Assembly (NCBI RefSeq): GCF_003614185.1
Contig: NZ_KZ987724.1
Coordinates: 5,151,722-5,195,250 of the forward strand
Reading direction: 5' to 3'
DNA from: Paenibacillus aceti
GTDB taxonomy: Bacteria; Bacillota; Bacilli; Paenibacillales; Paenibacillaceae
Length of the DNA stretch: 43,529 nt
Of this stretch, positions 7,227 through 36,811 are shown in pieces. The notes under the pieces are model-generated. The model was not told the DNA's origin. It worked only from the letters and a program-made list of their open reading frames with translations, and ran no database searches. Numbering within the stretch: position 1 is the stretch's first letter; every line of letters begins with the position of its first letter. Position numbers and translations under genes: made by a program.

Positions 7227-7411
7227 CTAACGAAACTGGAGAGCGTTATATACTCAAAAATAAGCCCAGTTCGAATCTAACGAAACTCCATATCGCTATT
7301 TTGGAGAAATCAGGCTTCAAGCGCACTTATGTAAACCAATAACGTTACCTAGTTTCGTCACAAATTTCAGAGGCCCATTTTGGTGCGAATAGCGATACCA
7401 CGTTTCGTTAG
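7227..7411 (-). repeat. 185-bp four-arm palindromic repeat, copy A
   Basis: The element is bounded by CTAACGAAAC and GTTTCGTTAG and holds two forward and two inverted copies of that motif. In minus orientation it aligns along its whole length with the copies at 34484-34668 and 36627-36811, and all three are exactly 185 bp. Internal conserved words include TATCGCTATT, GGTTTACATAAG, GCTTGAAGCCTGA and GGAGTTTCGTTAG. It begins two bases beyond the terminator of the 7461-7718 gene. No target-site duplication is obvious. Confidence 0.85.
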
Positions 7412-7413
7412 AA

Positions 7414-7448
7414 CAAAAAAGGACCGCCGCAGACGGCAATCCTTTTTT
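7414..7448 (-). terminator. terminator, usable on both strands
   Basis: AAAAAAGGA and GCCG pair with CGGC and TCCTTTTTT around a CAGA loop, with two unpaired bases on each side. It is A-rich on one side and T-rich on the other, so it could end transcripts from either direction. It lies 13 nt after the stop codon of the 7461-7718 gene. Confidence 0.8.
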
Positions 7449-7460
7449 GGAACTGTTCGA

Positions 7461-7718
7461 TTAGGATTTACTCCTGCGCATGGAGCGCAAAATCATGCTT
7501 ACGATAAGGACAAGCACGATGGCCCCGATCAGGGCAGGGACGAAATAGAAGCCTCCGATCACCGGGCCCCAGTTTCCTAACAGGAAGCTGCCCAACCAAG
7601 CCCCGATAAATCCGGCAATAATATTGCCGATTACCCCACCAGGGACATCTCTACCTAGAATTAATCCGGCCAGCCAGCCGAGTACACCACCGATAATTAA
7701 TGACCATAAAAACCCCAT
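7461..7718 (-). CDS. GlsB/YeaQ/YmgE-family small membrane protein
   Basis: This 85-residue protein consists of three hydrophobic glycine-rich segments (about residues 5-22, 28-52 and 58-80) and a basic tail RSMRRSKS. The pattern GGVLGWLAGLILG followed by IGNIIAGFIGAWLG is typical of the transglycosylase-associated / GlsB stress-response family. The start is ATG at 7718, with AGAGGTG seven bases upstream. The GTG at 7727 lies inside that ribosome binding site. Family members are linked to general stress in Gram-positives, but the molecular function is unknown. The gene is monocistronic, with its own terminator. Confidence 0.9.
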   Translation of the reverse strand: MGFLWSLIIGGVLGWLAGLILGRDVPGGVIGNIIAGFIGAWLGSFLLGNWGPVIGGFYFVPALIGAIVLVLIVSMILRSMRRSKS

Positions 7719-7832
7719 TGCTAACACCTCTGCTTTTTAGTTGGTTTGTCGTTTACTATTTACCAAAAAGGGGTGTTTTAAACATGTTTTTTGAAAAAGG
7801 TGCCAATTTGGAAATCATATGCCCAGGCTGGC

Positions 7833-8660
7833 TTAGCGCCTTCGACGAAAGCGGGCTACGAATAAGCAAGCGAGCACAAGAATAACCAGTGAACCGGCAG
7901 CCGTGATCGCTTCTTCCATACTTCCCTCAGTCTGCCCTGTTCCTTGACCGAGCCCGCCCCATGCTCCGCGATCTCCGCCGAAGCCACCAGGGAAGCCGCC
8001 CTCGATTCCGGCTTGTCCCCGTTCTCCATTCCACGCCGGAAGGTCCGCCGGAACGTTTGTCTCATCTGGCTGAGCTTGGCCGGCTTGACTCTGCTGCCCA
8101 TTATCAGCACCTTGCTGAGGCTCGGCATTTGTGGTTTGCTGTGCAGGACTGCCATCCGTACCTTGTTTCTGCGCATCTTGCTTGTTAGGCACTTCTGATG
8201 GGGTTGGGTCGGTGTCTACATCCCCGTTCGGTGTGATTGGCTGGGCTTGCTCACCCTGAACATTATCATCGCCCTGGCCCATGGTGGGTCTGCCACCGCC
8301 CATGCCGCCTCTGCCTCCCATGCCACCGCCCATACCTCCGCCGCTGCCGGAACCGTCACCTGAAGAAGGAATCGTGCCGTCCAGCTGCTGCGTTATATTC
8401 TCGACTTGGGAGGAGTTGCTGTTAATCAACTGGGGCAAAGCTTGTTCATACTGCTCATAGGTGTAGAACGCAGTCGGATCTGCTTTTACATATGGACTGA
8501 TCATCTCGGACAATTGATTAATCCGCGCCGTGAAGGTATCGCTGGCAAGATAGCCTTCGGTCGCTTCCTTCAGAATTTCGTGGTACTCCTCCTTGTACTT
8601 ATCGACGGCGAGCAGCTTGGCGATCAGTGGCCGTTCCGCCACCGCTCCCTCAATAAAGAT
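7833..8660 (-). pseudogene. CotH-like spore coat protein, 5'-truncated remnant
   Basis: The remaining frame matches the C-terminal part of CotH-type proteins: AERPLIAKLLAVDKYKEEYH, then a helical region. Next come a glycine-methionine-rich stretch (GGGMGGGMGGRGG), a Gln/Pro/Asp-rich linker, GGFPGGFGGD, and one C-terminal membrane segment (VILVLACLF) with an arginine tail. CotH is a protein kinase that phosphorylates coat proteins, and its kinase domain would lie upstream. Here the frame stops at an in-frame TAG (8658-8660), and the DNA beyond it is the Fur-regulated promoter of the next gene. The nearest start codon is GTG 8642, without a good ribosome binding site. The catalytic domain is therefore missing. 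Expression is doubtful. Confidence 0.75.
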
Positions 8661-8663
8661 CTA

Positions 8664-8693
8664 TTGACAATGATAATTATTATCAATTACTAT
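8664..8693 (+). promoter_or_regulatory. promoter with overlapping perfect Fur box
   Basis: TTGACA (8664-8669), an 18-nt spacer and TACTAT (8688-8693) form a sigma-A-type promoter. The spacer holds TGATAATTATTATCA (8671-8685), a perfect 7-1-7 inverted repeat matching the Fur box of B. subtilis. Iron-bound Fur would occlude this promoter, so the downstream heme monooxygenase should be induced by iron limitation. Confidence 0.88.
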
Positions 8694-8744
8694 GGAGATA
8701 GTGTTAAATTATTTATTATTGATGATGATGCGGAGGTACTGCCA

Positions 8745-9083
8745 TTGTTTATTATGACGAGAACGATGCTTGTCGAAAAGGGAAACAGTGATAAAATTGT
8801 CGAGCGCTTCAGCCAACCAGGTCCGATGGATGAGATGGAAGGTCTGATCGATATCAGTGTCATGGTGAATAGGAAGAGTAAGGAAGAGGAAGAAGTGGTG
8901 GCGATCATCCGCTGGGAATCCGAGGAGGCCTGGAAGAATTGGGAGAAGAGTCCTGCCCATATTGAAGGCCATCGCCAGAAGAGAGGCCAGCAGCCACCGT
9001 CCTATATCATCAGTACATCTGTGAATCTGTATCATGCTGAAGTGGTGAAGAAAGGCAAGGCATTTGCCGCGAACAACCTCTAA
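8745..9083 (+). CDS. hmoA: IsdG/HmoA-type heme-degrading monooxygenase
   Basis: This 112-residue protein is of the antibiotic-biosynthesis-monooxygenase fold. It matches the HmoA/IsdG group in length and in the segments MFIMTRTMLVEKG, DKIVERF, and WESEEAWKNWEKSPAHIEGH, which holds the conserved Trp and His of the heme site. The catalytic Asn seen near position 7 in IsdG is not evident here. Such enzymes open heme to release iron. I place the start at TTG 8745 because GGAGG (8732-8736) lies eight bases upstream. The frame is open far upstream, but there it only reads through the CotH remnant in antisense. The Fur box just upstream fits iron control. A terminator follows at 9108-9146. Confidence 0.87.
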   Translation: MFIMTRTMLVEKGNSDKIVERFSQPGPMDEMEGLIDISVMVNRKSKEEEEVVAIIRWESEEAWKNWEKSPAHIEGHRQKRGQQPPSYIISTSVNLYHAEVVKKGKAFAANNL

Positions 9084-9107
9084 TGAGTATATGAATTTAC
9101 AATAGTG

Positions 9108-9146
9108 ACAGTGCCGTATCCGAGCAATTAGGGGGCACTGTTTTTT
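9108..9146 (+). terminator. intrinsic terminator after the heme monooxygenase
   Basis: ACAGTGCC (9108-9115) pairs perfectly with GGCACTGT (9134-9141), followed by TTTTTT. Confidence 0.9.
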
Positions 9147-9217
9147 GTTGTGCTTCTGCACACGGCGAATTCTATGATAAGATTAGAATATCTTAAATTT
9201 AAAGCAGGGAGAGCGTC

Positions 9218-9988
9218 ATGAAATTAGTATCTTGGAATGTGAACGGGCTTAGAGCCTGTGTGAATAAAGGCTTTTATGATTATTTCAAAGAGGTCGATGC
9301 AGACATCTTCTGCGTTCAGGAGACCAAGCTGCAGGAAGGGCAAATTGAACTGGAGCTCGGTGAGGAGTATGAGCAATATTGGAATTACGCGGAGAAGAAG
9401 GGGTATTCCGGTACAGCTATTTTTACAAAAATAAAGCCACTTTCGGTCTGGTACGGTCTGGAGGAGAATGATGAGCCAGAGGGTCGCATGATCACGTTGG
9501 AGTTCGACAGCTTCTATCTAGTAAATGTATATTCCCCGAATGCCAAACGGGATTTAACCCGGTTGGAGTATCGGCTGGAATGGGAGGATCGCTTCCGCAG
9601 CTATTTGCTGGAATTGGACCGCCAGAAGCCTGTGATTGTATGCGGGGATATGAATGTGGCGCATCAGGAGATCGATCTGAAGAATCCGAAGTCAAATCTC
9701 GGCAACTCCGGCTTTACGCTGGAAGAACGGGGAAGGATGACGGAACTGCTTGGATCGGGATTTGTTGATTCCTTTCGGCATTTCTATCCCGATCGCGAGC
9801 AGGTTTATAGCTGGTGGTCCTACATGCCCAAGGTTAGAGAACGGAATGTGGGCTGGCGGATCGATTATTTCCTGACCTCGGCCAGATTGGCTCCGTCTCT
9901 GATCGATGCTGAAATCGATTGTCATATTATGGGCAGTGACCATTGTCCTGTGAAGCTGTATATGACAGATCCCGTTACCGCTAAGTAA
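9218..9988 (+). CDS. exoA: exodeoxyribonuclease III (AP endonuclease)
   Basis: This 256-residue enzyme is of the exonuclease-endonuclease-phosphatase fold, acting in base-excision repair at abasic sites and DNA 3' ends. Family landmarks are all present: SWNVNGLRA at the N-terminus, the metal-binding Glu in VQETKLQ, YSPNAKRDL, the catalytic CGDMNVAH, the RIDYFL region and the C-terminal SDHCPV. Length fits Bacillus ExoA (about 252). The ATG has CAGGGAGAGC upstream. It runs convergently into the VanZ-RDD gene, overlapping it by eight bases. Confidence 0.96.
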   Translation: MKLVSWNVNGLRACVNKGFYDYFKEVDADIFCVQETKLQEGQIELELGEEYEQYWNYAEKKGYSGTAIFTKIKPLSVWYGLEENDEPEGRMITLEFDSFYLVNVYSPNAKRDLTRLEYRLEWEDRFRSYLLELDRQKPVIVCGDMNVAHQEIDLKNPKSNLGNSGFTLEERGRMTELLGSGFVDSFRHFYPDREQVYSWWSYMPKVRERNVGWRIDYFLTSARLAPSLIDAEIDCHIMGSDHCPVKLYMTDPVTAK

Positions 9989-11108
9989 GCGGAGCTTGCT
10001 CCTCCTGAGCCTCCTCAGGCTTCCAGGCGACTACATGCTTGGTTCTGCTGATCTTCTCATAGAAGAGCTGAGGCTTCTTGCGTATCACACTGACAAAGAT
10101 GTGAATGAAGAAGGCGACGTCCATCGCAAAGATGAACAAGGTAACTAATACAGTGATAATCGGATGAAGATAGTCATTCAATAGCGGAATGGTCTGGTGT
10201 AGACCGAAGATTCCCCAGTATAGAATGCCATAGCGTACGATGAGGGACAGCAAGGATACCCTCTGTTTCGGTCCGGTTCGCGTGAGCCGGATGCGTACGA
10301 TCCATTTGCCGAAGGTATAACCGCCAGTCAGATATGGGAGTAGCATGAAATAGATTCCCGATGACAGCAGAAAAGAGAGCGACAAATCAAGCATCTGATC
10401 CAGCATGATCTGCAGTATGGACCATATCCAGAAGTCGATAATATAGGCGATGAACCTTCTTAAATAGGTTACACGCTTGCTCGATGGGTCTACATCGGCA
10501 TCCAGCCGTTCCACATTAGGGAGCAGGCTTGAGGTCCAGTCAGCAAGCAGGGCCCCCAAGATTCCGCCCAGCGTGTTCATCAAGAGATCATCCACGTCAA
10601 ACACACGGTAAGGATGACTGTAAATGCCGTATAAACCCGTTAACTGCGTCTGCTCGAAGAACAGAGAGAGCAGGAACGAGAACATAATGCAGCGCAGCCA
10701 GCCTTGCCGATAATAATAACGCAGCATCATGCCGAAGGGCATAGTCAGGAAGACATTGAACACGACCTGAAGGAAAGCCCGCTCCTTGAACAAATGCAGG
10801 TAAGAAGAAGGATTGGTGATGACGATGGAGGTCTCCTTCATAATGTCGCGCAGGAAATTCAGAGGCATGAGCTGCAGTCCGCCAGAGGCCATGGCCGGGT
10901 TATCCCTGGTCGCAGGAAGCGGCAGAATCACGAGAAAATAAGCGTTCAATAAATAAAGCAAGAACAAATATAGCAGAAACGATCTGAACTTATTGATATA
11001 GCCGTATTTGCGGTATTGCACAATCAGAAACGGCATTGTGAATAAGAAGGCTACAAAAGGAAAAGAGAAAAAAGCGTATTTGATTGGAAATAAGTATGAT
11101 TGAAGCAT
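9981..11108 (-). CDS. VanZ-RDD fusion membrane protein
   Basis: This 375-residue integral membrane protein has two parts. Residues about 35-195 are VanZ-like: NAYFLVILPLPATRD, the LMPLNFLRDI region, and the SLFFEQTQLTGLYGIYSHPYR and FDVDDLLMNTLGG segments. Residues about 215-360 form an RDD-type domain with RRFIAYIIDFWIWS and GGYTFGKWIVRIRL. VanZ homologues are tied to teicoplanin and lipoglycopeptide resistance through an unknown mechanism. RDD domains occur in many membrane proteins, some acting in ion or osmolyte exchange. The start is ATG 11108 with GCAGGTG upstream. The in-frame TTG at 11123 lacks one. The 3' end overlaps the convergent exoA by eight bases. Confidence 0.88.
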   Translation of the reverse strand: MLQSYLFPIKYAFFSFPFVAFLFTMPFLIVQYRKYGYINKFRSFLLYLFLLYLLNAYFLVILPLPATRDNPAMASGGLQLMPLNFLRDIMKETSIVITNPSSYLHLFKERAFLQVVFNVFLTMPFGMMLRYYYRQGWLRCIMFSFLLSLFFEQTQLTGLYGIYSHPYRVFDVDDLLMNTLGGILGALLADWTSSLLPNVERLDADVDPSSKRVTYLRRFIAYIIDFWIWSILQIMLDQMLDLSLSFLLSSGIYFMLLPYLTGGYTFGKWIVRIRLTRTGPKQRVSLLSLIVRYGILYWGIFGLHQTIPLLNDYLHPIITVLVTLFIFAMDVAFFIHIFVSVIRKKPQLFYEKISRTKHVVAWKPEEAQEEQAPLT

Positions 11109-11160
11109 AGCTGCACCTGCCAATTATGATTTAGATTATTTTATATTGTACCACTTCTAT

Positions 11161-12042
11161 TTATACAGGCTTAGCTGATTGGATCACAAATTTCCTGAAT
11201 TGCTCTGCCGCCGGGGAGAGAAATCTGCCTTCCGCCGCAGCGATGCCGATTTCCCGGTAACAGTTCGGGTTTCTGACAGAGATCCAGGCGAGCCCGTTCT
11301 CGTCGATGCCTTCCGTTTTGGGGAGGATCGCGATACCCAGTCCGGCACAGACCAGTCCAGCGATCGTATGAATCTCCTCTCCTTCGAACAGAATGCGCGG
11401 GGAGATGCCTGCTTGCTGCAGTAGCTCATCGGTAATATGGCGCAGTCCATAGCCATCCTTGAACGAGATAAGCATCTCGTCCTGTAGTTCCTCAAGGGCT
11501 ACGGAGGTTGATCCGGCCAGTCGGTGATGGACAGGAACCGCGAGATACAGCTTCTCGGTCCATAGCTTCGTCCATTCGATACTTAGGGAGGTGTCCTGCG
11601 GTGAGGACATACATAAATCTATTTCACCCGAGTCAAGCCGTTCCAGCAAGCTCAGGTTGCTATTCTGATGAAGCTGAAAGCGGACATGCGGGTAGATGTC
11701 GCGGAATCTGCCGATCAGATCCGGAATCCAGCGGACGCCAAGGGTATGCAGGAAACCCAGCGATATCTCGCCGCGTTCAGGATCGAGCAGCTGTTCAAGT
11801 TCGCGCCGCCCGGCCTGGTACTCCTCCAATATTCGATCCACCCGGGCGAGGAATAGCTTGCCGTACTGGTTCAGGACGATGGTCCGCCCTTTCCGTTCAA
11901 ATAGGGGTACATTCAATTCATCCTCGAGTCTGGCAATGGATCTGCTAAGAGCAGGCTGAGTAATATTTAAAGCTCTGGCTGCGGAGGTCATATGCTGAAT
12001 TCGTGCTACAGTCTGAAAGTATTCTAGTTGCTGCCACTCCAT
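11161..12042 (-). CDS. LysR-family transcriptional regulator
   Basis: This 293-residue protein has the classical LysR winged helix-turn-helix at residues 1-60 (TSAARALNITQPALSRSIARLE). Residues 88-293 form a two-lobed effector-binding domain, with the usual opening GEISLGFLHTLGVRW. It is transcribed divergently from an MFS transporter across 146 nt, an arrangement like B. subtilis yybE/yybF. LysR regulators commonly control the divergent neighbour and themselves, so this one probably controls the MFS gene. The inducer is unknown. The ATG has GAGGGAGAATG upstream. Confidence 0.94.
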   Translation of the reverse strand: MEWQQLEYFQTVARIQHMTSAARALNITQPALSRSIARLEDELNVPLFERKGRTIVLNQYGKLFLARVDRILEEYQAGRRELEQLLDPERGEISLGFLHTLGVRWIPDLIGRFRDIYPHVRFQLHQNSNLSLLERLDSGEIDLCMSSPQDTSLSIEWTKLWTEKLYLAVPVHHRLAGSTSVALEELQDEMLISFKDGYGLRHITDELLQQAGISPRILFEGEEIHTIAGLVCAGLGIAILPKTEGIDENGLAWISVRNPNCYREIGIAAAEGRFLSPAAEQFRKFVIQSAKPV

Positions 12043-12097
12043 GAATCATTCTCCCTCTATCTCTGCTTATTACATCCAATATATAAGAGTGTTACTA

Positions 12098-12119
12098 ATA
12101 ATGCATTATACTATAGTAT
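12098..12119. promoter_or_regulatory. putative LysR operator, two adjacent palindromes
   Basis: ATAATGCATTAT (12098-12109) and ATACTATAGTAT (12108-12119) are perfect 12-bp palindromes that overlap by two bases, about one helical turn apart. They lie midway between the LysR and MFS genes. LysR proteins typically bind a recognition site plus an adjacent activation site in this way. TTGACC at 12119-12124 could be a -35 element for the MFS gene, but no well-spaced -10 is clear. Confidence 0.5.
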
Positions 12120-12188
12120 TGACCCGTCCTATACTTACTATGTGACCAATAAATAAACATAGATAAGAATTGGATTGGAGAGAGAGAA

Positions 12189-13403
12189 ATGAATACGATA
12201 GAAGTGGGGAGTTCTGAGCATCGGAGAACTTCTATTAGCATGCTGCTCGGCAGTATTGTTACGTTTGCGGTGCTGTATAGTCCGCAGCCGTTAATCAGTC
12301 TGTTCTCGAAGCAATATCATATTTCCCCGGCGACGGCGGGCGCTTCGGTGTCTTTGGCCACGATCGGACTGGCGATTGGTCTGGTCATTGTATCGGCTGT
12401 ATCTGATCGTGTGGATCGGAAGCTATTAATGAGCCTGTCGCTGCTTACTACCTCGTTATTGGCAATTTTATCTGCGTTTACCGAGCAGTTTTCATTGTTT
12501 CTTGTGATCCGTTTTCTGGAGGGAATCAGTATCGCTGGCTTCCCATCGATCGCGATGGCCTTTCTGAATGAAGAGTTCCACCCCAGCGCAATGGGGCGGG
12601 TCATCGGGATTTATGTGGCTGGTACGTCGATCGGCGGTTTTTTTGGCCGTATTGTGATCGGAGCGTTGACCGACCTGTTCAACTGGCAGATCGCCCTGAT
12701 GATGCTGGGGGCGTTAAGCCTGTTGTTCAGCCTATACTTCTGGCGCAACCTGCCAGCTTCCCGTAATTTTACACCCGGAAAGACAAGCCTGCATCAATGG
12801 GAGGCGGGCCTTAAACATAACTTCACGCAGCGGAAATTACTCGGGTTATTCCTGACGGCCTTTCTGCTGATGGGCGTCTATATTATGATCTTGAATTATA
12901 TCGGTTATCCGCTTACGAGCAAGCCCTATAATTTGAGTCAGACGGTATTCGGCTTTCTGTTCGTCGTCAACCTGTTAGGCACTTGCAGCTCGGTCTGGTT
13001 CGGCAAGCTGGCTGACCGTCATCCACGGCAATATGTTATCGCGCTGGCGATAGGTATTCTGCTGCTCGGGGTACTGCTGACATTAAGCACGGTATTATTC
13101 CTGAAAATACTCGGTGTCGCTCTCGTAGCCTTCGGGTTCTTCGCGGCCCATTCCGTAGCCAGCGGCTGGGTCGGGATCGTAGCCGGCCGTAAGTATAAGG
13201 CGCAGGCTTCAGCGCTGTACCTGTTATTTTACTATGGCGGATCAAGTCTGGTTGGCTGGTCTGGCGGCTTGTTCTTTCATCAGTTTGGTTGGAACGGTAT
13301 GATCGCTTATGCGGGTGTACTGCTTGTCCTCGCTATACTAGTCTCGCGGCTGGCAGCCAGTTCCCCGCGTACACAATATGCACATGGGAGCAGCGTTCAT
13401 TAA
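12189..13403 (+). CDS. MFS transporter (YnfM/YybF type)
   Basis: This 404-residue protein has about twelve membrane segments. It carries major-facilitator hallmarks: the loop 2-3 motif SAVSDRVDRKLL, RFLEGISIAGFPSIAMAFLNEEF in segments 4-5, and a repeat of the loop motif in the second half (GKLADRHPRQ). This pattern fits the YnfM-like proton-driven efflux subgroup. The ATG follows GGATTGGAGAGAGAG. Its divergent LysR neighbour is the likely regulator. The substrate is not predictable. Export of a small toxic metabolite or drug is the usual role. Confidence 0.92.
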   Translation: MNTIEVGSSEHRRTSISMLLGSIVTFAVLYSPQPLISLFSKQYHISPATAGASVSLATIGLAIGLVIVSAVSDRVDRKLLMSLSLLTTSLLAILSAFTEQFSLFLVIRFLEGISIAGFPSIAMAFLNEEFHPSAMGRVIGIYVAGTSIGGFFGRIVIGALTDLFNWQIALMMLGALSLLFSLYFWRNLPASRNFTPGKTSLHQWEAGLKHNFTQRKLLGLFLTAFLLMGVYIMILNYIGYPLTSKPYNLSQTVFGFLFVVNLLGTCSSVWFGKLADRHPRQYVIALAIGILLLGVLLTLSTVLFLKILGVALVAFGFFAAHSVASGWVGIVAGRKYKAQASALYLLFYYGGSSLVGWSGGLFFHQFGWNGMIAYAGVLLVLAILVSRLAASSPRTQYAHGSSVH

Positions 13404-13483
13404 ATCTGAGCATTTGTCCCTTTCATTAGGAGTTCATCCCGCATCTATTAATACATCAGGGAATTCTGGAAGAGGGATGTTAG

Positions 13484-14401
13484 ATGGAACGACAAGTGAT
13501 TATAAATGCAGATGATTTCGGCTTGTCCCCAGCCGTGAATCGCGGGATTATTGAAGCATTTCAGGCCGGCGGTATTACCAGCACCTCCTTAATGGTTAAT
13601 ATGCCGGGCTTTGAGGAGGCGGTGCAGCTGGCATTCAGCCAGCCTGCGTTGAGCGTCGGTCTGCATTTCAATCTGACCTATGGGCGGCCAGTCTCGAATC
13701 CGGCCAGCATCCCCTCGCTAGTGAGGTCGGATGGAAGCTTTCACAGCGACCCTCTCGCCCCGGCACGGGATTCGCGGGATGTGCATCGGGAGCTTACAGC
13801 CCAATGGGAGCGCTTCGTGAGGACGGGGCTGCGTCCAACGCATCTGGACTCCCATCATTTGCTGCATCAGCAGCATCCGGAAATATACAAGGTAATGGCG
13901 CGCAAGGCCTACAAGGAGGGAGTCCCGTTGCGCAGATCGCAAATACAGCATGCGATCAGCGGAGTTCCGGCTGTCAAAATGACGGATGCCATCCTGCTTG
14001 ACTCTTATGGTGGTGATGAGGGAAGACAGCGTCTCGGGCAGCATTTGCTATCGGTTCAGGAAGGAATTACCGAGATCGTCTGCCATCCGGGTCATGTAGA
14101 TGAGACCTTGCGGGAAATATCCCGGTGGGTGGATATTCGGGAGCAGGAGCTTGCTCTGTTTGCCAGCCCTGAGGTGGCGAATACGCTCGCTGCGATAGGA
14201 CTCGTCCCGGTGAGTTACCGAGCCTTGCAAAAGGTCAGGACGAGGACGTCGATCCGTTCTCGCTCTCGTCTTCGTTCTGGTAAAGGGCTGCGAAGACCCG
14301 TTTACTATGCTGCACCTCAGCGTCCTGCGGCAAAAGGGCGGAGGTTGAGGAAAGCAAAAAGGAATGGCGTTTCAATGAATCGGTCCCACAGGGCCAGATA
14401 G
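13484..14401 (+). CDS. YdjC/ChbG-family carbohydrate deacetylase
   Basis: This 305-residue protein is of the YdjC/ChbG/HpnK family of metal-dependent deacetylases acting on N-acetylated sugars. The N-terminal INADDFGLS motif supplies the metal Asp. SVGLHFNLTYG and LDSHHLLHQQ supply the His ligands and surroundings, and EIVCHPGHVDE forms the C-terminal active-site strand. Residues 245-305 form an unusual basic tail (many Arg/Ser/Lys), longer than in typical members and probably disordered. The ATG has AAGAGGGATG upstream. A strong terminator follows, so it is its own unit. The substrate (chitobiose, a diacetyl sugar or a glycolipid) is undetermined. Confidence 0.9.
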   Translation: MERQVIINADDFGLSPAVNRGIIEAFQAGGITSTSLMVNMPGFEEAVQLAFSQPALSVGLHFNLTYGRPVSNPASIPSLVRSDGSFHSDPLAPARDSRDVHRELTAQWERFVRTGLRPTHLDSHHLLHQQHPEIYKVMARKAYKEGVPLRRSQIQHAISGVPAVKMTDAILLDSYGGDEGRQRLGQHLLSVQEGITEIVCHPGHVDETLREISRWVDIREQELALFASPEVANTLAAIGLVPVSYRALQKVRTRTSIRSRSRLRSGKGLRRPVYYAAPQRPAAKGRRLRKAKRNGVSMNRSHRAR

Positions 14402-29700: not shown

Positions 29701-29727
29701 ATATAATAGATAGAAGGTGAGGTCCCT

Positions 29728-30153: not shown

Positions 30154-30160
30154 ACATTGT

Positions 30161-30220
30161 GGGGGTTGTTCTGCCGCAGGCTTTAGAAATCTGCGGTGGG
30201 GGCAACCCTGTTTGTTTTGT
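30161..30220 (+). terminator. operon terminator after the exopolysaccharide cluster
   Basis: GGGTTG and CCGCAG pair with CTGCGG and CAACCC across an asymmetric bulge. A T-rich tract (TGTTTGTTTT) follows. It marks the 3' end of the eight-gene operon. Confidence 0.75.
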
Positions 30221-30280
30221 GGGCCGTGCTGTGATCTGTAGGCTTTTTCTCGTGCAATCCCCCCTCCTTAATTTAGATAT

Positions 30281-30475
30281 TCCGCTTAGTTGCAGAAATA
30301 CAACTATTCCGAGGGAAATCAGCCTGTAGTCTGGCAATAGATGCGAATATACAACTATTATCTGACTTTGGCCCGGATCGAGGGGGGAATCCCCCAAATA
30401 GTTGTATAACTGCAGTTATATTCCCCGTTGAGGGTATAAACCGGGCAGATAGTGGTATATATGCATCTATATTCC
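30281..30475. repeat. four-arm palindromic repeat, ACAACTATT family
   Basis: Two forward arms contain TGCA/TGCG followed by ATACAACTATT (30291-30308 and 30342-30359), 51 nt apart. Two inverted arms contain AATAGTTGTAT or GATAGTGGTAT followed by TGCA and ATATTCC (30397 and 30448), also 51 nt apart. The whole is symmetric about 30378. A GGGGGGAATCCCCC hairpin lies near the centre. It has the same layout as the 185-bp repeat but a different sequence. No gene is visible between 30221 and 30625. Confidence 0.65.
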
Positions 30476-30625
30476 TTCCACCCCTTCCCCCCAAAAAAAT
30501 GCCAGCGCATAATGGAGTACCTGGACTACCACCCTATCGTCTCATGAAATCATTCAGATTCCTATCCATATTTTAGGCGGCCACGTTATAATAGGGCTAC
30601 CTAGAAGAAGAGGAGAGGGAGAGGA

Positions 30626-31303
30626 ATGGCTCATATTGTCATAGCGGATGATGATGCGCATATTCGCGAGTTGATCGGCGTTTATTTGCAGAATGAAGGG
30701 TTTGAAGTGACGGAAGCAGAAGATGGCGTGGCAGCACTGGCAGCGGTGAAGAATGTACAGGCGGATCTCGTCATTCTCGATATAATGATGCCCGGGATGG
30801 ACGGCTGGGAGCTATGCAGCACGCTGCGTGCGAAGTACCCTGATTTGCCACTGCTGATGATCTCCGCCAAAGGTGAACCTGCTCATAAAGTAAAAGGATT
30901 CCGGCTTGGAACCGATGATTATATGACGAAACCGTTCGATACGCTGGAGCTAGTCATGCGGGTCAAGGCGTTGCTGAAGCGTTACCGAATTACATCTGCG
31001 CAGACCGTTCAACTTGGTAAGCTGCAACTGAACCGTCAGGCTTATAAAGTATTCCGCGGCGATGAGTCGTTCACTCTGCCGTTGAAGGAGTTTGAGCTAT
31101 TGTATAAGCTGGCCAGCTTCCCCGGGCAAATTTTCACAAGGGATCAATTGATCGAGCAAATCTGGGGGTTCAATTATGAAGGCGATGAGCGGACGGTAGA
31201 TGTCCATATTAAAAGATTGCGTGAACGGTTCGGGGAAGATGCTGATGTGTTTCGAATCGAGACCGTACGTGGCCTTGGTTATCGACTTGAGGTGAACGGA
31301 TGA
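30626..31303 (+). CDS. OmpR/PhoB-family response regulator
   Basis: This 225-residue protein has a receiver domain (1-118) with acidic pocket residues D8/D9/D10, phospho-acceptor D52 in VILDIMMPGMDG, and the conserved Lys in MTKPFD. A winged-helix effector domain (125-225) follows, with RDQLIEQIWGFNYEGDERTVDVHIKRLR split over its recognition region. The ATG has GAAGAGGAGAGGGAGAGG upstream. It overlaps the kinase gene by four bases (ATGA), so the two are coupled. Its likely operator is the set of four direct repeats at 32712-32750, ahead of the hydrolase gene. Confidence 0.95.
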   Translation: MAHIVIADDDAHIRELIGVYLQNEGFEVTEAEDGVAALAAVKNVQADLVILDIMMPGMDGWELCSTLRAKYPDLPLLMISAKGEPAHKVKGFRLGTDDYMTKPFDTLELVMRVKALLKRYRITSAQTVQLGKLQLNRQAYKVFRGDESFTLPLKEFELLYKLASFPGQIFTRDQLIEQIWGFNYEGDERTVDVHIKRLRERFGEDADVFRIETVRGLGYRLEVNG

Positions 31304-32652
31304 TCCGCTCATTATACACTCGTGTCGTTCTGACCTTCCTACTTGCGGTTATTGCCGGGTTGAGCATCGCTTTTGTAGCGACCTGGACGATCTTTCAGAC
31401 GCGGCTAGAGAAGGAAATCGAGGAGGAGGTCTTGGCGGTCTCCAGTGATCTGGTTGAGAGCTATGCCCAAGCTTCAGACCAGAGCCTGGATTCACTTCGT
31501 AATCATGCCCGTGCTCTGCGCAACTATTCGATCCGCATCATTGACCAGAGCGGTGATATCCTGGTTCTTAATTCTCCATATGCTGATCATGGGATTGCCG
31601 TACCATCTGAAGAGTCCAGACGTGTATTGAACGGGGAGACGGTGGTATTTACAGATCGTGGAGCGAAGATCGTGGGACGCCCCTTTGAGCGGAGTGGCGA
31701 ATCCTACGCCTTATTCGTAAAGCCAGCAGATAACAGTAGCTTCCCCTTGGCGCGCATTCTGGTCACCTTCCTGCTAATTATGTTTTGTATAGGTGGTTTT
31801 ATATTCCTGATTGCTTCCCGATTTATGGTCAAGCCCATCCGTAGAATGACTGATGCCACGGAACGAATGGCCCGCGGTGACTTCGATGTTGAGCTGAACT
31901 TGAACCGCAGGGACGAGTTAGGTGTATTGGCACAGAGCTTCGATCATATGTCAAAAGAGTTAAAACAGATTGAGCAAATGCGTCAGGATTTCGTGTCTAA
32001 TGTGTCCCATGAGATTCAATCACCACTGACCTCGATCACCGGATTTGCCCAAGCGCTGCGCGATGGTGTCGTATCCAGCGAGCATCAGACGAGATATCTC
32101 GGCATTATAGCGGAGGAGAGCAAGCGGCTCTCCCGGCTTAGCGATAACCTGCTCCAGCTAGCTTCCCTGGATTCAGACCATCATCCGTTCGCACCGACTA
32201 CTTATGCGCTTGATGAGCAAATCCGCCAAGTTATCGTCTCTCTGGAGCCGCAATGGTCTGGTAAGCGAATCGTCATCGAGCTTGAATTGCCGGCAGTTCA
32301 AATTGTTGCCGATGCGGATCAATTAAATCAGGTATGGATCAATCTGCTCAGCAATGCTATCAAGTTCACGCCCGAGGGGGGCAGAGTAGGTATCGAGCTG
32401 CGTTTGACCACCAACGAGATTGAAGTGATGATTGCTGATACAGGAATAGGTATTTCCCCGGAGCAGATTAACTATGTGTTCGAGAGATTTTACAAGGCAG
32501 ATCAGTCTCGCAATCGTGTCAGCAAAGGCAGCGGACTAGGGCTTGCCATCGCACGTAAGATCATTGAACTGCATGAAGGGCAGATCTTCGTCGCCCATAG
32601 CTCTCCTGACGAGGGAACTACGATTAAAGTTATCTTGCCGGCCGGGAGATAA
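31300..32652 (+). CDS. sensor histidine kinase
   Basis: This 450-residue membrane kinase has membrane segments at about 8-32 and 152-173 with a 120-residue extracytoplasmic sensor domain between them. It continues with HAMP (174-226), HisKA with the phospho-accepting H237 in VSHEIQSPLTS, and an ATPase domain with N (NLLSNAIKF), G1 (DTGIGI), F (FERFYKAD) and G2 (GSGLGLAIARK) boxes. It is a complete and probably active partner of the upstream regulator. The sensor part has no recognisable ligand motif. The stimulus could be envelope- or lipid-related, given the adjacent hydrolase (inference). A terminator follows. Confidence 0.95.
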   Translation: MIRSLYTRVVLTFLLAVIAGLSIAFVATWTIFQTRLEKEIEEEVLAVSSDLVESYAQASDQSLDSLRNHARALRNYSIRIIDQSGDILVLNSPYADHGIAVPSEESRRVLNGETVVFTDRGAKIVGRPFERSGESYALFVKPADNSSFPLARILVTFLLIMFCIGGFIFLIASRFMVKPIRRMTDATERMARGDFDVELNLNRRDELGVLAQSFDHMSKELKQIEQMRQDFVSNVSHEIQSPLTSITGFAQALRDGVVSSEHQTRYLGIIAEESKRLSRLSDNLLQLASLDSDHHPFAPTTYALDEQIRQVIVSLEPQWSGKRIVIELELPAVQIVADADQLNQVWINLLSNAIKFTPEGGRVGIELRLTTNEIEVMIADTGIGISPEQINYVFERFYKADQSRNRVSKGSGLGLAIARKIIELHEGQIFVAHSSPDEGTTIKVILPAGR

Positions 32653-32663
32653 TGGCTAGCAAA

Positions 32664-32707
32664 GTCTCCGGTACGGAATTTTCCGTTGGCGGAGGCTTTT
32701 TATTTTC
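32664..32707 (+). terminator. terminator after the two-component genes
   Basis: GTCTCCG pairs with CGGAGGC (one G-U), and the inner ACGGAA pairs with TTCCGT. A T-rich tail (CTTTTTATTTT) follows. Confidence 0.82.
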
Positions 32708-32711
32708 CTCT

Positions 32712-32781
32712 GTTCATATTCAGTTCATATTGGGTTCATGATCCGTTCATGACCACAGGATAAGATGGTGCCGAATAAAAT
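32712..32781 (+). promoter_or_regulatory. PhoB/OmpR-type operator with four 11-bp direct repeats, plus promoter
   Basis: GTTCAT occurs at 32712, 32723, 32734 and 32745, exactly 11 bp apart. The first two repeats extend to TTCATATT, the last two to TTCATGA. Four half-sites on one DNA face are the normal target of two response-regulator dimers of the PhoB/OmpR class. A -10-like TAAAAT lies at 32776-32781, placing the repeats just upstream of the -35 position, as for an activator. The adjacent response regulator is the obvious candidate. Confidence 0.7.
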
Positions 32782-32807
32782 ATTACAGCCAAATAGGAGA
32801 GTTCGAG

Positions 32808-34304
32808 ATGAGAATTTTTGAGGTGCTTCTTCTTTTATCCAGTGTGGTTTTACTAGTGATGATGTTCTCTAAGAGCATCCATTGTAGGACGTTATTTTTG
32901 GCTAGCGTGTCGGATATGGTACTGCTCATTATTCACTTGGTAGTGGAGGGCTATAGAGTACAGCTGCTATTTCCTTATTGTCTTATTGTCATTATATTTA
33001 GTATTTCGCTGTATCGATTGCTTCGGAAAGAAGAGGCCCGCAGGGTACCGCGCTATTTATCCGTGCCACTTACCAGCATAGCCACTTTGTTGTTGGTTCT
33101 CACGGCGGCTCTTATGTATGCGTTCCCGGTATTTCCATTACCAGAGCCGACAGGCAGCTTTAAGGTAGGTACGCAGACCTTTCATTTTATTGATTACGGA
33201 AGGAAAGAACAGTTCGGAGAGCAGCCAGGGGTACAGAGAGAGCTGATGGTTCAGGTATGGTATCCGGCGCAAAATACAACGGGCAGACCGCTGCCTTTTA
33301 TCCCCGAGAGCACTAGAGTGCTTAAAGAGGAACCGATGTCTCAGACGATGGGGATTCCGCGGATTTTCATGAATTATCTGAAATATATTCAGACCCATTC
33401 CTATGAGGGGGCCGAGGTGGCGAGCTCCAATTCTTCTTACCCGTTAGTTCTTCTGAATCATGGCTTCGGCTCATCGAAGATTTACCAGACTTCACAGGCC
33501 GAAAATATGGCAAGTCACGGTTATATCGTGGCCTCGATTGACCATACTTACAGCACATTTGCCACTGTATTTCCAGATGGGCGCACGACGACGATGAGAA
33601 CCGATGATGAACAGGTTGGAGACAAGCCGTATCGGGATAATGTAGGAAAAATGTGGACGGATGATGTCACTTTTACTCTAGACCAGCTTGAACAGATGAA
33701 TGCCGGGCTCATTCCTAGTGGGTTGGAGGGGCGAATGGATCTGAAGCGTGTGGGTGTATTTGGTCATTCCTTTGGCGGAGCCGCTTCCTATGATGCGGCT
33801 AATGATCCGAGGATTATGGCGGGGATCGATCTGGACGGAGCGCTCTATCGTTATGATCAGGCTCCATTAACGAAGCCGTTTATGTTCATGTTCTCGGAAC
33901 GCACCTTCGACCTCTACAATAAAGTGAGGGAACATTATATCTATACCGATGAGGAACTGGCGGAAATGGGGGCGACAAGAGAAGGGTTCGAGGAGGCTCT
34001 AACTGAGGTTGAAACCCAAGTGGAGCATCTTGTATATGTGGCTCAGCATGGAGGTCAAGTTTTGTATATCGAGAATACGGAGCATTATAATTTTGCCGAT
34101 CTGCAGTTCATTACTCCATTTTTGCGCCAATTCCAGCTCATAGGGACCATCAGCCCTGCTCGATCTGCGGCTCTAGTGAACGCATATACGCTCGATTTCT
34201 TTAACAAGTACTTGAAGGGTGAGGGTGGGAGCTTGCTTGAAGGGCCGAGCAGCGAATATTCCGAAGTGAAGTTTGCGACATCGCTGTTTGCTGGGAAGGA
34301 GTAA
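32808..34304 (+). CDS. membrane-anchored alpha/beta hydrolase, PAF-acetylhydrolase-like
   Basis: This 498-residue protein has four N-terminal membrane segments (about residues 4-20, 33-48, 54-70, 88-108). An alpha/beta-hydrolase domain (about 120-490) resembles the plasma PAF-acetylhydrolase/dienelactone hydrolase group. Features are MVQVWYPA, the oxyanion region LLNHGFGSS, the nucleophile elbow GHSFGG (S321), a likely acid in GIDLDGA and a likely His in ENTEHYNFAD. The domain should face outside the cytoplasm, given the membrane topology. The substrate may be an ester or short-chain lipid. The direct-repeat operator in front suggests control by the upstream two-component pair. The ATG follows AATAGGAGAGTTCGAG. 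Confidence 0.86.
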   Translation: MRIFEVLLLLSSVVLLVMMFSKSIHCRTLFLASVSDMVLLIIHLVVEGYRVQLLFPYCLIVIIFSISLYRLLRKEEARRVPRYLSVPLTSIATLLLVLTAALMYAFPVFPLPEPTGSFKVGTQTFHFIDYGRKEQFGEQPGVQRELMVQVWYPAQNTTGRPLPFIPESTRVLKEEPMSQTMGIPRIFMNYLKYIQTHSYEGAEVASSNSSYPLVLLNHGFGSSKIYQTSQAENMASHGYIVASIDHTYSTFATVFPDGRTTTMRTDDEQVGDKPYRDNVGKMWTDDVTFTLDQLEQMNAGLIPSGLEGRMDLKRVGVFGHSFGGAASYDAANDPRIMAGIDLDGALYRYDQAPLTKPFMFMFSERTFDLYNKVREHYIYTDEELAEMGATREGFEEALTEVETQVEHLVYVAQHGGQVLYIENTEHYNFADLQFITPFLRQFQLIGTISPARSAALVNAYTLDFFNKYLKGEGGSLLEGPSSEYSEVKFATSLFAGKE

Positions 34305-34315
34305 TAATTGAGTGA

Positions 34316-34351
34316 GGGGGCAGTGCTGCAAATATGCAGCCTTTTGCCCCC
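34316..34351 (+). terminator. hairpin ending the hydrolase transcript
   Basis: GGGGGCA (34316-34322) pairs with TGCCCCC (34345-34351), and GCTGCA/TGCAGC (34325-34340) forms the inner stem. A strong T run is missing, so termination strength is uncertain. The inner stem is also the first arm of the second TGCAGG array. Confidence 0.5.
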
Positions 34352-34453
34352 TTGTTCAAGGATCAGGTCGATATGGTGAAAATAACGGCATTATCCTTAC
34401 GGAGTTGTTCACCACGGGTCGGAACAGTTGCGAAATTCCTGCATAATTGCAGG
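34325..34453. repeat. TGCAGG hairpin array, copy 2 (partly decayed)
   Basis: GCTGCA/TGCAGC centred at 34332 and CCTGCA/TGCAGG centred at 34445 are 113 nt apart, close to the spacing between arms 1 and 3 (112) or 2 and 4 (111) in the array at 6996-7173. A GCATTATC word near 34388 matches the third arm of that array. A second or decayed arm is missing. It directly precedes the 185-bp repeat copy B. Confidence 0.5.
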
Positions 34454-34483
34454 CTTTGGCGAAACCTGGGGTGTAGATAGATT

Positions 34484-34668
34484 CTAACGAAACCTGGTAT
34501 CGCTATTCGCGCCCAAAAGGGCCTCTGAAAATTGTAACGAAACAGGGTAACGTTATTGGTTTACATAAGAGTGCTTGAAGCCTGAATTCTCTCAAATAGC
34601 GCTATGGAGTTTCGTTAGATTCGATCCGGGCTTGTTTTTGAGTAATTAGCGTTCTGTAGTTTCCTTAG
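34484..34668 (+). repeat. 185-bp four-arm palindromic repeat, copy B
   Basis: CTAACGAAAC starts at 34484 and the second arm GTAACGAAAC at 34534 (50 nt later). Inverted arms end at 34618 (GTTTCGTTAG) and 34668 (GTTTCCTTAG), again 50 nt apart. The length is exactly that of copies A and C. It has the same orientation as copy C at 36627-36811 and the opposite to copy A. Nothing coding is visible in 34352-34862. Confidence 0.87.
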
Positions 34669-34862
34669 AGTTGTATCCTATAGTTATATGAACCTACATA
34701 ACCGTGAAATTGATTTCGTAGAAGGACAAGTCCTTCCATGGTAACAAAATGAACGAGGAGAACTTCAAAACTTTTGAGTATAATTGAAAATTCCTGTTCT
34801 CCACTTGCCGAATAGAACGCTTGATCGTACTGGGATTACAGGATATGAGGCAACGCGAATAA

Positions 34863-35051
34863 CTACAAGAAAAAGTAAAAACCCACCCCAAGGTTGCACG
34901 CCGAAGGTGGGTTTCTAACGTCCTTTAACTTGAAGGGATACCCCATCCAAGCTAATTGTACAGGCCGAGTGTTACCAGCACTCGGTCTTTCTGACGTTAT
35001 TTTACCATAATAGACCCCCATTTCACCTTCTTTATACATTCGGATATCCAT
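34863..35051 (-). CDS. small ORF with NTRPVQLAWMG motif, doubtful
   Basis: A possible 62-residue frame on the minus strand has ATG starts at 35051 or, behind GAAGGTG, at 35018. It contains NTRPVQLAWMG. The frame at 38718-38969 holds NTKPIQLAWMG, and the codon differences between the two are synonymous or conservative, which is a weak sign of coding selection. The end of the frame overlaps a terminator-like hairpin, AAACCCACC/GGTGGGTTT (34879-34914). It could instead be the degraded end of a mobile element. I do not recognise the family. Confidence 0.3.
   Translation of the reverse strand: MDIRMYKEGEMGVYYGKITSERPSAGNTRPVQLAWMGYPFKLKDVRNPPSACNLGVGFYFFL
34879..34914 (-). terminator. minus-strand terminator-like hairpin
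   Basis: AAACCCACC and GGTGGGTTT form a 9-bp stem. Read on the minus strand it is followed by TTACTTTTTC, so it would end transcripts running leftward from the small ORF region. Confidence 0.55.
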
Positions 35052-35152
35052 GCAATCCTCTATTGAATAATTGGGCTTATGGCAACTGTTTTAAATTGTC
35101 GCTTTAAGTTTCGCCCTATGGTGGCTACAATAACATAAAAAGGGAAAGAAAT

Positions 35153-36577
35153 ATGGGGGCGAGTTTTATGAATATCCAGGAATTGAGGGAACACCGGCAG
35201 TACCCGGACAATATCGGGCAAGAAAATAGTCGCGCGACCTTTGAACGCGATTATTCGCGGTTGATTCATTCGCCGACCTTCCGCCGATTGCAGGGCAAGT
35301 CGCAGGTATTCGGGGCGGGGACCGGTGATTATTACCGGACGCGGCTGACGCATTCGCTGGAGGTGGCGCAAATCGCCAGAGAAGCGGCGCGGAGCTTGCT
35401 GCGATCCTATCCGGATGTTGCTGTGGAACGCGCAGACCATCCCGGATTGATCATCGATCCGGAGGTCGTTGAGTGTGCGGCCATCTGCCATGATTTTGGA
35501 CATCCTCCATTTGGCCATAAAGGCGAAGAGGTGCTGGATCATATTTTGGAGAAGCTGGTGGAAGAGAAGATAGAGCAGGCTTTGAAGAATACCGACCCAA
35601 CACCTGATGAAGTACAACGGGTTCGGGTTGCTATCCGGCAGAAGTATGAGCATTTTGAAGGCAACGCCCATAATTTTCGGCTGATGATGTTCCTGGAGAA
35701 ACGGGAAAATATCGACGGCCTTAACTTGTCAGACGCCGTGCTGCTCGGGACGAACAAATATCCTTACCCCGGCACTGTTAATAAAAAAGGCCTCTATCTG
35801 CATGAGTGGGAATATATCTCCTACATCCGCGACCGTTGGGGCATTCCGGAAGGGAAAAAAACGTTCGAGGCACAATTGATGGATTTATGCGATGATATCG
35901 CTTATTCAGCACATGATCTCGAGGATGGCATTAAAGCGGGTAAAATTGAGGTGCATGAGCCTTTTCTCAAGGATTCGCATATTCAGCGGCTGATCGTCGA
36001 GAAAGTCATGACATTGGAGGATTCCTTCTGGGACGGTTGGACGCCAGATCAGATTCTGGTCAAGGTAGAAGAGGTGCTGAATTCATTCTTACGCGTCTGG
36101 AATGAGAAAATGCCGATTTGTAATCATGAGTATTCCCGGACACGTCGCGAAGTCAAGGCGTATTGGGTCAGCCTGTTCGTGTCCAGCCTTGGTGTAGTTC
36201 CTGACGGTAACTGGCAGAAAGTAACGTTCGTGAAGGAAGGTCTGGAGGATGAGGATATGCTGCGGACGGTGAGCGTGTTGAAAAGCTTTGCTTGGGTGAC
36301 CATGATCCGCGACTTACGGGTGCAACGGCTGCAGAAGCGCAGTGCTTGGGTTATTAAGCGGCTATGGGATGCTTTTGTCGATCCCGAGACATCCAAATCG
36401 ATTATCCCTGGCGACTGGCTGCGCCGTTTTGATCGCGATCAGGCGAGGGAGAAGCCGATATGGACCTGGGAGCATATGATCATCGATTATATCGCTGGCA
36501 TGACAGACGCTTATGCGGAGAAGATCTATAATGAGCTGTACGGACTGAAGGTAGGGACAATTTACGAGATGGATTAA
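35153..36577 (+). CDS. dgt: dGTPase-family deoxynucleotide triphosphohydrolase
   Basis: This 474-residue protein is of the HD-domain dGTP triphosphohydrolase family. It has the N-terminal DYSRLIHSPTFRRLQGKSQV signature and metal-binding His67 in RTRLTHSLEVAQIA. The HD pair is H113-D114 in ICHDFGHPPFGHKGEE, with a further Asp in LCDDIAYSAHDLEDG. The enzyme splits dGTP (and often other dNTPs) into nucleoside and tripolyphosphate. Starts at 35153 or 35168 are both possible. AGGGAAAG precedes the first and GGGGGCGAG the second. Interestingly, thymidine kinase lies convergent next door, so two deoxynucleotide pool genes are adjacent. A strong terminator follows. Confidence 0.94.
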   Translation: MGASFMNIQELREHRQYPDNIGQENSRATFERDYSRLIHSPTFRRLQGKSQVFGAGTGDYYRTRLTHSLEVAQIAREAARSLLRSYPDVAVERADHPGLIIDPEVVECAAICHDFGHPPFGHKGEEVLDHILEKLVEEKIEQALKNTDPTPDEVQRVRVAIRQKYEHFEGNAHNFRLMMFLEKRENIDGLNLSDAVLLGTNKYPYPGTVNKKGLYLHEWEYISYIRDRWGIPEGKKTFEAQLMDLCDDIAYSAHDLEDGIKAGKIEVHEPFLKDSHIQRLIVEKVMTLEDSFWDGWTPDQILVKVEEVLNSFLRVWNEKMPICNHEYSRTRREVKAYWVSLFVSSLGVVPDGNWQKVTFVKEGLEDEDMLRTVSVLKSFAWVTMIRDLRVQRLQKRSAWVIKRLWDAFVDPETSKSIIPGDWLRRFDRDQAREKPIWTWEHMIIDYIAGMTDAYAEKIYNELYGLKVGTIYEMD

Positions 36578-36626
36578 AATAAAGAAGAGGCTGGCTCATA
36601 AGCATAAGCTGGCCTCTTCTTTATTT
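36577..36626 (+). terminator. bidirectional terminator after dgt
   Basis: AAATAAAGAAGAGGC (36577-36591) pairs perfectly with GCCTCTTCTTTATTT (36612-36626). The very next base starts the 185-bp repeat copy C. Confidence 0.9.
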
Positions 36627-36811
36627 CTAACGAAACCTGGTATCGCTAATTGTGCTCAAAACGGCTGCTGAGAATTTTAACGAAACGGGGTATCGTTATT
36701 AGTTTACATAAGTGGTTATAACACCGAAATCCTCTGAAATAACGATATGGAGTTTCGTTAGATTTGATTTGCTGCTAATTTGGGGACAATAGCGATCTGT
36801 AGCTTCGTTAG
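36627..36811 (+). repeat. 185-bp four-arm palindromic repeat, copy C
   Basis: The element starts CTAACGAAAC at 36627, directly abutting the dgt terminator, and ends GCTTCGTTAG at 36811, five bases before the stop end of the thymidine kinase gene. It has the same length and arm positions as copies A and B, but is more diverged in the spacers. It fills the whole gap between dgt and tdk. Confidence 0.85.

Follow-up and report, generated by a model that had tools for sequence, protein, structure and literature searches.

Intergenic four-site palindromic cassettes with a linked gene family in the order Paenibacillales

The stretch of DNA analysed here, hereafter the window, comprises 43,529 nucleotides of Paenibacillus aceti (RefSeq assembly GCF_003614185.1, contig NZ_KZ987724.1, positions 5,151,722 to 5,195,250) and contains three copies, A, B and C, of an intergenic 185-bp repeat with four palindromic arms. 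We found that these copies belong to an order-wide class of intergenic four-site cassettes with a linked gene family. The reading that we favour, at a probability of roughly 0.58, is that the cassettes are phased binding sites for the linked DNA-binding, perhaps mobilising, protein, which would recognise the arms and may move the whole unit.

Layout, copy number and length of the cassettes

Copies A, B and C aligned without gaps across 185 nt, with 87% (A) and 77% (C) identity to copy B. Each carried 25-nt arms at 1–25 and 51–75 in forward orientation and at 111–135 and 161–185 in inverted orientation, separated by intervals of 25, 35 and 25 nt, which gives a cassette layout of 25/25/25/35/25/25/25 (Table 1). 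A single arm was itself an imperfect dyad, TAACG..CGYTA, of the form TAACGAAAC-NNN-GTATCGCTA, and the dyad centres, at 12, 62, 124 and 174, lay 50, 62 and 50 bp apart. Internal arms were about as conserved as terminal arms. The exact length of 185 bp, the arms at positions 1, 51, 135 and 185 and the conserved spacer GTTTACATAAG had been proposed in an original prediction made from the letters of the window, and all were confirmed in the three copies. The same prediction placed the starts of copies A and C within 0–2 nt of a terminator; judged by eye, these two start 0–4 nt past a terminator-like hairpin, and copy B does not. Copy C is situated between the terminator-like hairpin of an HD-domain gene and the 3' end of a thymidine kinase gene.

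A search of the 5.6-Mb window genome with the arm pattern, allowing up to 3 mismatches, gave 304 and 307 matches on the two strands, against 1 match for a reversed-pattern control. When copy B was used as a blast query, all of the candidates scored (40 of 202) were significant. An even sample of the same genome, made up of 20-kb stretches at 20 regularly spaced positions, contained 12 full copies in 400 kb, copy A among them, together with several partial copies of one to three arms; by extrapolation we estimate that the genome holds on the order of 150–200 full cassettes. Collected mostly from the window genome, Paenibacillus sp. GM2, D2_2 and P. glycanilyticus, 146 full-length hits represented 143 distinct copies, of which 123 measured 185 nt, 12 measured 184 nt, 7 measured 186 nt and 1 measured 183 nt. 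Mean identity was 83% in the arms and 50% in the spacers (87 copies of 185 nt, mutually less than 85% identical). The constraint on spacing is therefore strong, and selection on spacing is well supported by lengths that all fall within 183–186 nt while the spacers agree at about 50%. Of the 'selection on spacing or structure' originally suggested, this first half stands; the second, taken as pairing between arms, found no support within the lineage, where covariation did not exceed shuffles.

Counting copies in its own and related genomes, the check proposed with the prediction, showed the repeat to be high-copy in the window genome, with relatives across the order. With 1 mismatch allowed, the arm of the window's lineage was found in 5 of the 41 genus genomes (419, 437, 216, 140 and 1 matches), a sequence-only model (R1) had matches in 28 of the 41, and a cross-lineage model (R2) added one more (G044) among 15 re-tested genomes. 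When R2 was applied to the order Paenibacillales, with 13 candidates scored per genome, relatives were detected in at least 148 of 198 genomes and at least 32 of 43 genera. The layout was followed by eye in about 30 genomes from five families; nearly all copies agreed with it, and the arms were lineage-specific, those of other lineages including CTAACGAATC, CTAACGGACC, CTAACGGAAC, CTAACGGAAG and CTAACGAACC. Loci L238 (G049) and L264 (G044) fitted poorly. In the sister genus g15 the centre measured 45 rather than 35 nt, with 195 nt to the consensus ends, as read from 10 copies in 6 genomes; 4 of these copies came from 400 kb of unselected sequence, and the other 6 were best hits, several of which resembled one another. 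Arms of at least two other types, close to CTAATGAAC and AGGGAACTACAG, occurred in genome G160 in a roughly similar frame; one G160 locus (L326, 8726–11026) contained eight cassettes in tandem, repeating at intervals of roughly 302 bp. Many spacers in the G007 and G020 lineages (L220–L262) contained paired ATTTCCCG / CGGGAAAT motifs similar to half of the Noc-binding consensus, a likeness that may be due to chance. None of the open-access PubMed Central (PMC) papers that our searches listed was found to describe this repeat.

A linked gene family and other palindromes on the same spacing

Homologues of a cassette-linked gene, first met as a 277-residue frame in genome G017, were present in 13 of 341 sequences. 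These correspond to 12 distinct gene copies from 11 genomes, and in one copy the frame is broken. The cassette lay on the 3' side in 11 of the 12 distinct gene copies, at positions ranging from a 43-bp overlap to a distance of 126 bp. As a neighbour control we clustered all frames of at least 150 residues lying no more than 200 bp from a full cassette, which gave 215 clusters from 275 frames at 219 loci in 49 genomes. The linked family recurred beside cassettes in 10 of the 49 genomes; the next cluster, an ABC transporter as judged from its sequence, did so in 4 genomes and two further clusters in 3. No autonomous transposon with matching ends stood out among the frames at the 219 loci. In G017, which had one detectable cassette, the 277-residue frame ended within the cassette and had no Pfam match. 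In place of the repetitive extragenic palindrome (REP)-associated tyrosine transposase (RAYT) originally suggested, a different linked gene family was found, and its role may be a mobilising one.

Since most gene–cassette pairs stem from loci selected for their cassette, cases in which the gene was met first weigh more. Two homologues were met without cassette selection, one at locus L191 of the window genome, in an evenly spaced stretch, and one in P. cellulosilyticus (NZ_CP054613.1). The L191 gene was followed by palindromes TAACGGWCATTAATGTCCGTTA lying 111 bp apart, between which, at 50 bp, stood a palindrome of another type. The P. cellulosilyticus homologue was 32% identical and bore arrays of GTAGGTGCA-N4-TGCACCTAC on both flanks (L341), with 11 units downstream at 50–51 bp and 13 units upstream at 51 bp, interrupted once by an interval of 102 bp; a 120-bp query from the array matched 31 places in NZ_CP054613.1 and 5 in NZ_CP054609.1. 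A second place in NZ_CP054613.1 may hold a further homologue. As neither gene adjoins a cassette of the A–C type, the two cases are evidence for linkage and for the rule of spacing, and not for an identity of sequence. Even samples of G072 and G160 (0.8 Mb) contained no homologue at E 1e-4. Among phage, plasmid and viral contigs, the linked protein was found only in one P. cellulosilyticus record, and no cassette was detected by blastn or by the exact pattern of two arm types.

The linked protein is about 215–230 residues long and matched nothing above family cut-offs. An alignment of ten proteins revealed invariant E59, E61, D73, E87, H94, R96 and D97, and the C-terminal stretch gave weak winged-helix matches below cut-off. 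The P. cellulosilyticus protein, read by eye, has the order E..D..ExK, with K at the position (89) where the ten aligned proteins have Q or H, an order that we take to resemble that of the PD-(D/E)XK nucleases.

The window genome contains further palindromes of similar design. Palindromes of the form CCTGCA-N4-TGCAGG stand right by copies A and B (Table 1), and exact CCTGCA palindromes occurred 16 times in 443.5 kb, where four scrambled controls gave 0. Three palindrome families of differing sequence, two of which share the TAACG start, were compared in these 443.5 kb. Spacings between neighbours were 50 (31 times) and 62 (14 times) bp for the cassette arms, with single cases of 7, 51, 60, 61, 107 and 118; 50 (4 times), 51, 60, 61 (3 times) and 110 bp for TAACGGWCAT; and 50, 51 (4 times), 111 (2 times), 112 (4 times) and 113 bp for CCTGCA. 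The three families therefore share spacings near 50–51 and 60–62 bp or their sum, and the CCTGCA-type palindromes form another population of repeats built to this design.

Table 1. Cassettes, neighbouring genes and CCTGCA-type palindromes in the window
Feature	Position	Strand	Details
Copy A, 185-bp four-arm cassette	7227–7411	-	arms 7387–7411, 7337–7361, 7277–7301, 7227–7251
Copy B, 185-bp four-arm cassette	34484–34668	+	arms 34484–34508, 34534–34558, 34594–34618, 34644–34668
Copy C, 185-bp four-arm cassette	36627–36811	+	arms 36627–36651, 36677–36701, 36737–36761, 36787–36811
HD-domain gene	35153–36577	+	between copies B and C; served the orthology test
Thymidine kinase gene	36816–37385	-	convergent on copy C
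CCTGCA-type palindromes, four dyads beside copy A	6996–7173		starts 6996, 7047, 7108 (imperfect), 7158; spacings 51, 61, 50
Two CCTGCA-type palindromes upstream of copy B	34325–34340, 34438–34453		113 bp apart, no dyads recognised between

Elsewhere the window begins within a 23S rRNA gene, carries a purine riboswitch at 2087–2199 that scores over the Rfam gathering threshold, and contains a 41-nt direct repeat (34942–34982 and 38884–38924; 80% identical, gap-free) between called genes. A PADLOC search yielded nothing noteworthy.

Arm pairing, positional turnover and alternative explanations

One recognition motif per lineage predicts that the four arms change jointly, whereas pairing between arms fits across lineages and not the null result obtained within the lineage. 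In the window's lineage neither of two pairing schemes (1:4 + 2:3 and 1:3 + 2:4) showed covariation beyond shuffles; mutual information was highest inside arms 3 and 4, and the within-arm dyad was 77.8% paired, with shuffles at 77.4% (a value as high arose in 5 of 500). Across lineages the four arms did change jointly, with 206 double changes against 121.5 in shuffled data (0 of 500 as high). Both schemes paired equally well, at 81.8% and 82.3%, so this signal is well explained by the concerted change of one motif. The compensatory changes between arms that the original prediction raised were accordingly missing inside the lineage, and the positive signal between lineages has this equally good explanation. 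Pairing of the arms as RNA or hairpin within the lineage was rejected on the lack of covariation in both schemes. The steps in spacing from 62 to 72 bp, and roughly from 50 to 61 bp, amount to some one helical turn of DNA, which is what binding of proteins to the double strand would predict.

We therefore regard it as quite improbable that the cassette acts as a structured RNA or single-stranded hairpin, be it a hairpin of the kind formed by inverted REP doublets (REPINs), an RNase III substrate or a riboregulator, although the inverted arms could fold, partner arms are compensatory across lineages and the within-arm dyad lies slightly over shuffles. Besides the missing covariation, cassette strand had no clear relation to transcription in tandem contexts (same direction, 9 copies of the blast set and 1 of the even sample; opposite direction, 13 and 5). 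At the gathering threshold, Rfam 15 detected 23S and 5S rRNA and the purine riboswitch in the window, and the cassettes had no match.

The fate of individual copies was followed in 10 presumed orthologous pairs from the window genome, GM2 and D2_2, which are few and share members. Lengths were 185/185 in 9 of the 10 and 184/185 in one. Arm identity in 8 pairs was 0.87–0.96 and spacer identity 0.61–0.74, against a random-pair spacer identity of 0.50 (standard deviation 0.09, 95th percentile 0.65); 3 of the 8 lay below that percentile. The copies of the pair L040/L112 were equal in length, yet the aligner chose three gaps, and the pair L022/L084, with a spacer identity of 0.51 equal to background, is probably not orthologous. 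The region around L038/L145 was very similar, with flanks at 0.81–0.92, and the two loci differed in the number of 50-bp arm-plus-spacer units ahead of the cassette; for most other pairs the 120-bp flanks could be aligned only partly, mostly with gaps. In the GM2 arrays, L203 and L101, cassette and flank are duplicated in tandem, and one of the several tandem copies was entered in the comparison; other L203 copies measured 184 nt. Because the presumed orthologous pairs conserve arms and length while spacers and flanks diverge, copies seem to be retained at their sites as the sequence around them changes. A further dispersed repeat, resembling CATCGAATCTTGAATTCAGCCGG, was found near cassettes in G000, G008 and GM2 (L010, L045, L206 and, less clearly, L202) and can mimic orthology.

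Positions also turn over. At the site of copy C, the G008 copy is internally deleted, GM2 carries single arms and a tandem of three copies in the opposite orientation, and G010, G007 and G022 have no copy. At the site of copy B no copy was detected in G008 and GM2, and both copies of locus L192 are absent from these two genomes, the nearest relatives of the window genome.

Two explanations without the linked protein as a mobilising partner bear on these results. Noc, SlmA and the gyrase sites of bacterial interspersed mosaic elements (BIMEs) are examples of sites that organise chromosomes or bind nucleoid proteins. If the cassettes were immobile host sites of this kind, under selection, with the linked gene encoding an autoregulated binding protein, their conservation in situ, their intergenic placement and the ExQ or ExH in place of ExK, which suggests binding without cutting, would be expected. 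Convergent genes were in some excess in the blast set (37 copies: 22 in tandem gaps, 10 convergent, 3 divergent, 1 overlapping a small called frame and 1 at an edge), with 10 of 35 classified copies compared with 38 of 211 background gaps of at least 30 bp (137 tandem, 38 convergent, 36 divergent). This excess was absent from the even sample (2 of 10), whose 12 copies comprised 6 tandem, 2 convergent, 2 divergent and 2 overlapping small called frames. A spreading population more easily accounts for hundreds of dispersed sites that switch specificity in concert, for the turnover of positions between species and the tandem amplification in GM2, and for the coexistence of several families in one genome; we consider the immobile host site unlikely, while taking it seriously. 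An improbable alternative is a family of miniature inverted-repeat transposable elements (MITEs), that is, elements derived from an ordinary DDE transposon and not autonomous themselves, which once spread and now drift. Inverted terminal arms, high copy number, changing positions, such as the two window-genome copies missing from both nearest relatives, and a G001 copy inside an IS200-like element that apparently carried it are all in its favour. It is opposed by the retention of length and arms in presumed orthologous copies while spacers drift, by internal arms conserved about like the terminal ones and by a recurrent neighbour that is not a transposase family. As originally claimed, target duplication was missing: none was seen in 115 copies (k = 2–9, offsets 0–7), although old copies could have lost one, the 2-mer match at cassette ends was 0.035 both observed and expected, and the top z-scores (up to 5.7) came from single copies (1 of 115). 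The original statement that the repeat is not a dead transposon fits these findings, and the cassettes may be mobile now or may have been in the past.

A genuine REP/REPIN family, moved by a RAYT or an IS200-type Y1 transposase, would likewise consist of palindromic, intergenic, inverted units with hundreds of arms, and the window genome has 14 Y1 matches. Their scores are identical, as expected of a recent insertion sequence (IS). Genomes G003 and G008 had 0 matches to PF01797 (RAYT/Y1) despite 437 and 216 arm matches, and G009 and G018 had 8 and 20 Y1 matches without a detectable cassette. The proposed link to a REP-associated tyrosine transposase fails on G003 and G008, which rule out RAYT/Y1 as a requirement, and we regard this explanation as very improbable indeed. 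The Y1 neighbours in G001 are those of the IS200-like element (L064, L013), in which a cassette lies between the Y1 gene and the element end and was seemingly carried along; three-arm copies also recur near many G001 contig ends, apparently spread by this IS. The cassettes do have the extragenic, inverted-pair, high-copy palindromes of REP/REPIN. According to PMC3733652, whose text does not mention Paenibacillus, REP/REPIN palindromes carry a GTAG or CGTC tag at one end. The arms of copies A–C and of most lineages read begin with CTAACG; one G160 arm type contains CTAC, and the P. cellulosilyticus palindrome begins with GTAG.

Several points weigh against phased binding cassettes for the linked protein. 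No cassette was detected by R1 or R2 in 12 of the 41 genus genomes. The cognate gene of copies A–C was not located in about 0.5 Mb of the window genome, and the L191 homologue adjoins a repeat other than the A–C cassette. The 10 genomes with a linked gene are not fully independent, since G005 and G054 are near-identical at the linked locus (97% over 20 kb) and two records belong to P. glycanilyticus; in 39 of the 49 genomes the gene was unseen because few loci were read in most, and the preponderance of cassette-selected loci, as said, biases the pairs. With ExQ or ExH as the third motif, the ten aligned proteins may bind without cutting, and a nuclease may be inactive. Profile and PDB sequence searches with the linked protein gave no match over cut-off and no solved relative, and a four-sequence structure model was too poor to use (predicted local distance difference test score, pLDDT, 46), so the fold is read from motifs by eye. 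In addition to the missing target duplications, a clean empty site was not found; the gaps orthologous to L192 are without copies but not clean. Binding, cutting and movement are thus steps that we infer.

Within the binding-cassette reading, a cognate protein, probably the product of the linked gene, would bind the four dyads on double-stranded DNA on roughly the same helical face, and the bound protein would join the two inverted pairs into one complex. Less surely, the linked protein, or a relative acting in trans, may also spread the cassettes. Cassette population and protein would then shift specificity together as REPINs and RAYTs do, with another enzyme and with double-stranded rather than hairpin DNA. 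Tentatively, and somewhat short of an even chance, this could hold for the whole order: Paenibacillales would have repeat-associated nuclease-like winged-helix proteins, two or more types to a genome, and each type would have palindromes of its own on a common grid of about 50, 61 or 72 bp, one helical turn apart, with co-changing specificity. Together they would form a RAYT-independent, double-stranded counterpart of REPINs that builds and maintains dispersed four-site nucleoprotein cassettes.

Comparison with known systems

Dispersed palindromes of bacteria are usually ascribed to RAYTs, MITE transposases or nucleoid proteins, and on the tests made the cassettes fit none of these. The class comes with a candidate protein and near base-pair-exact spacing in at least 32 of the 43 genera sampled in a single order. 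It makes testable how a genome preserves hundreds of sites while the sequence recognised in them differs from lineage to lineage, and whether the job of RAYTs can be done by a nuclease-like protein; if the specificity pairs hold, it would also offer many natural protein-to-palindrome pairings for recognition studies.

By analogy, the cassette system may work like REPIN/RAYT, with binding, cutting and spreading by a dedicated protein, without being a member, since the test for the defining enzyme failed. Compared with the system described by Bertels and Rainey 2011 (PMC3116915), the two have in common high-copy extragenic palindromes that are dispersed and arranged as inverted units, a gene family near some of them and lineage-specific sequence groups; a cassette has four dyads at a fixed 50/62/50, whereas a REPIN is a hairpin doublet. 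Such systems are also treated in PMC8049555. Two copy-rich cassette genomes lack a match to the Y1/HUH enzyme of RAYTs, the linked protein has a different nuclease-like motif and a winged-helix-like end, and the cassettes lack within-lineage pairing covariation.

The bacterial MITEs, as which bcr1, NEMIS, RUP and ERIC are named in PMC3733652, are similarly short, non-coding and high-copy, with terminal inverted repeats and a location near genes. The cassettes differ from them in the lack of target duplication, in internal arms like the terminal ones, in length conservation in situ and in that no cognate transposase was seen among the neighbours. The BIMEs of enterobacteria are intergenic palindrome mosaics with spacers of set length that occur in tandem clusters. 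The cassettes share all three features and differ from BIMEs in their palindromes, in bacterial order, in a spacing that is near base-pair exact and in a linked gene that is not a RAYT. Multi-operator sites, Noc/SlmA-type sites and res-type sites of resolvases carry multiple dyads in phase, which a single protein could bind and bridge, and in this they are like the cassettes. Unlike them, the cassettes number an estimated 150–200 in the window genome, occur order-wide and fall into sequence families that change fast.

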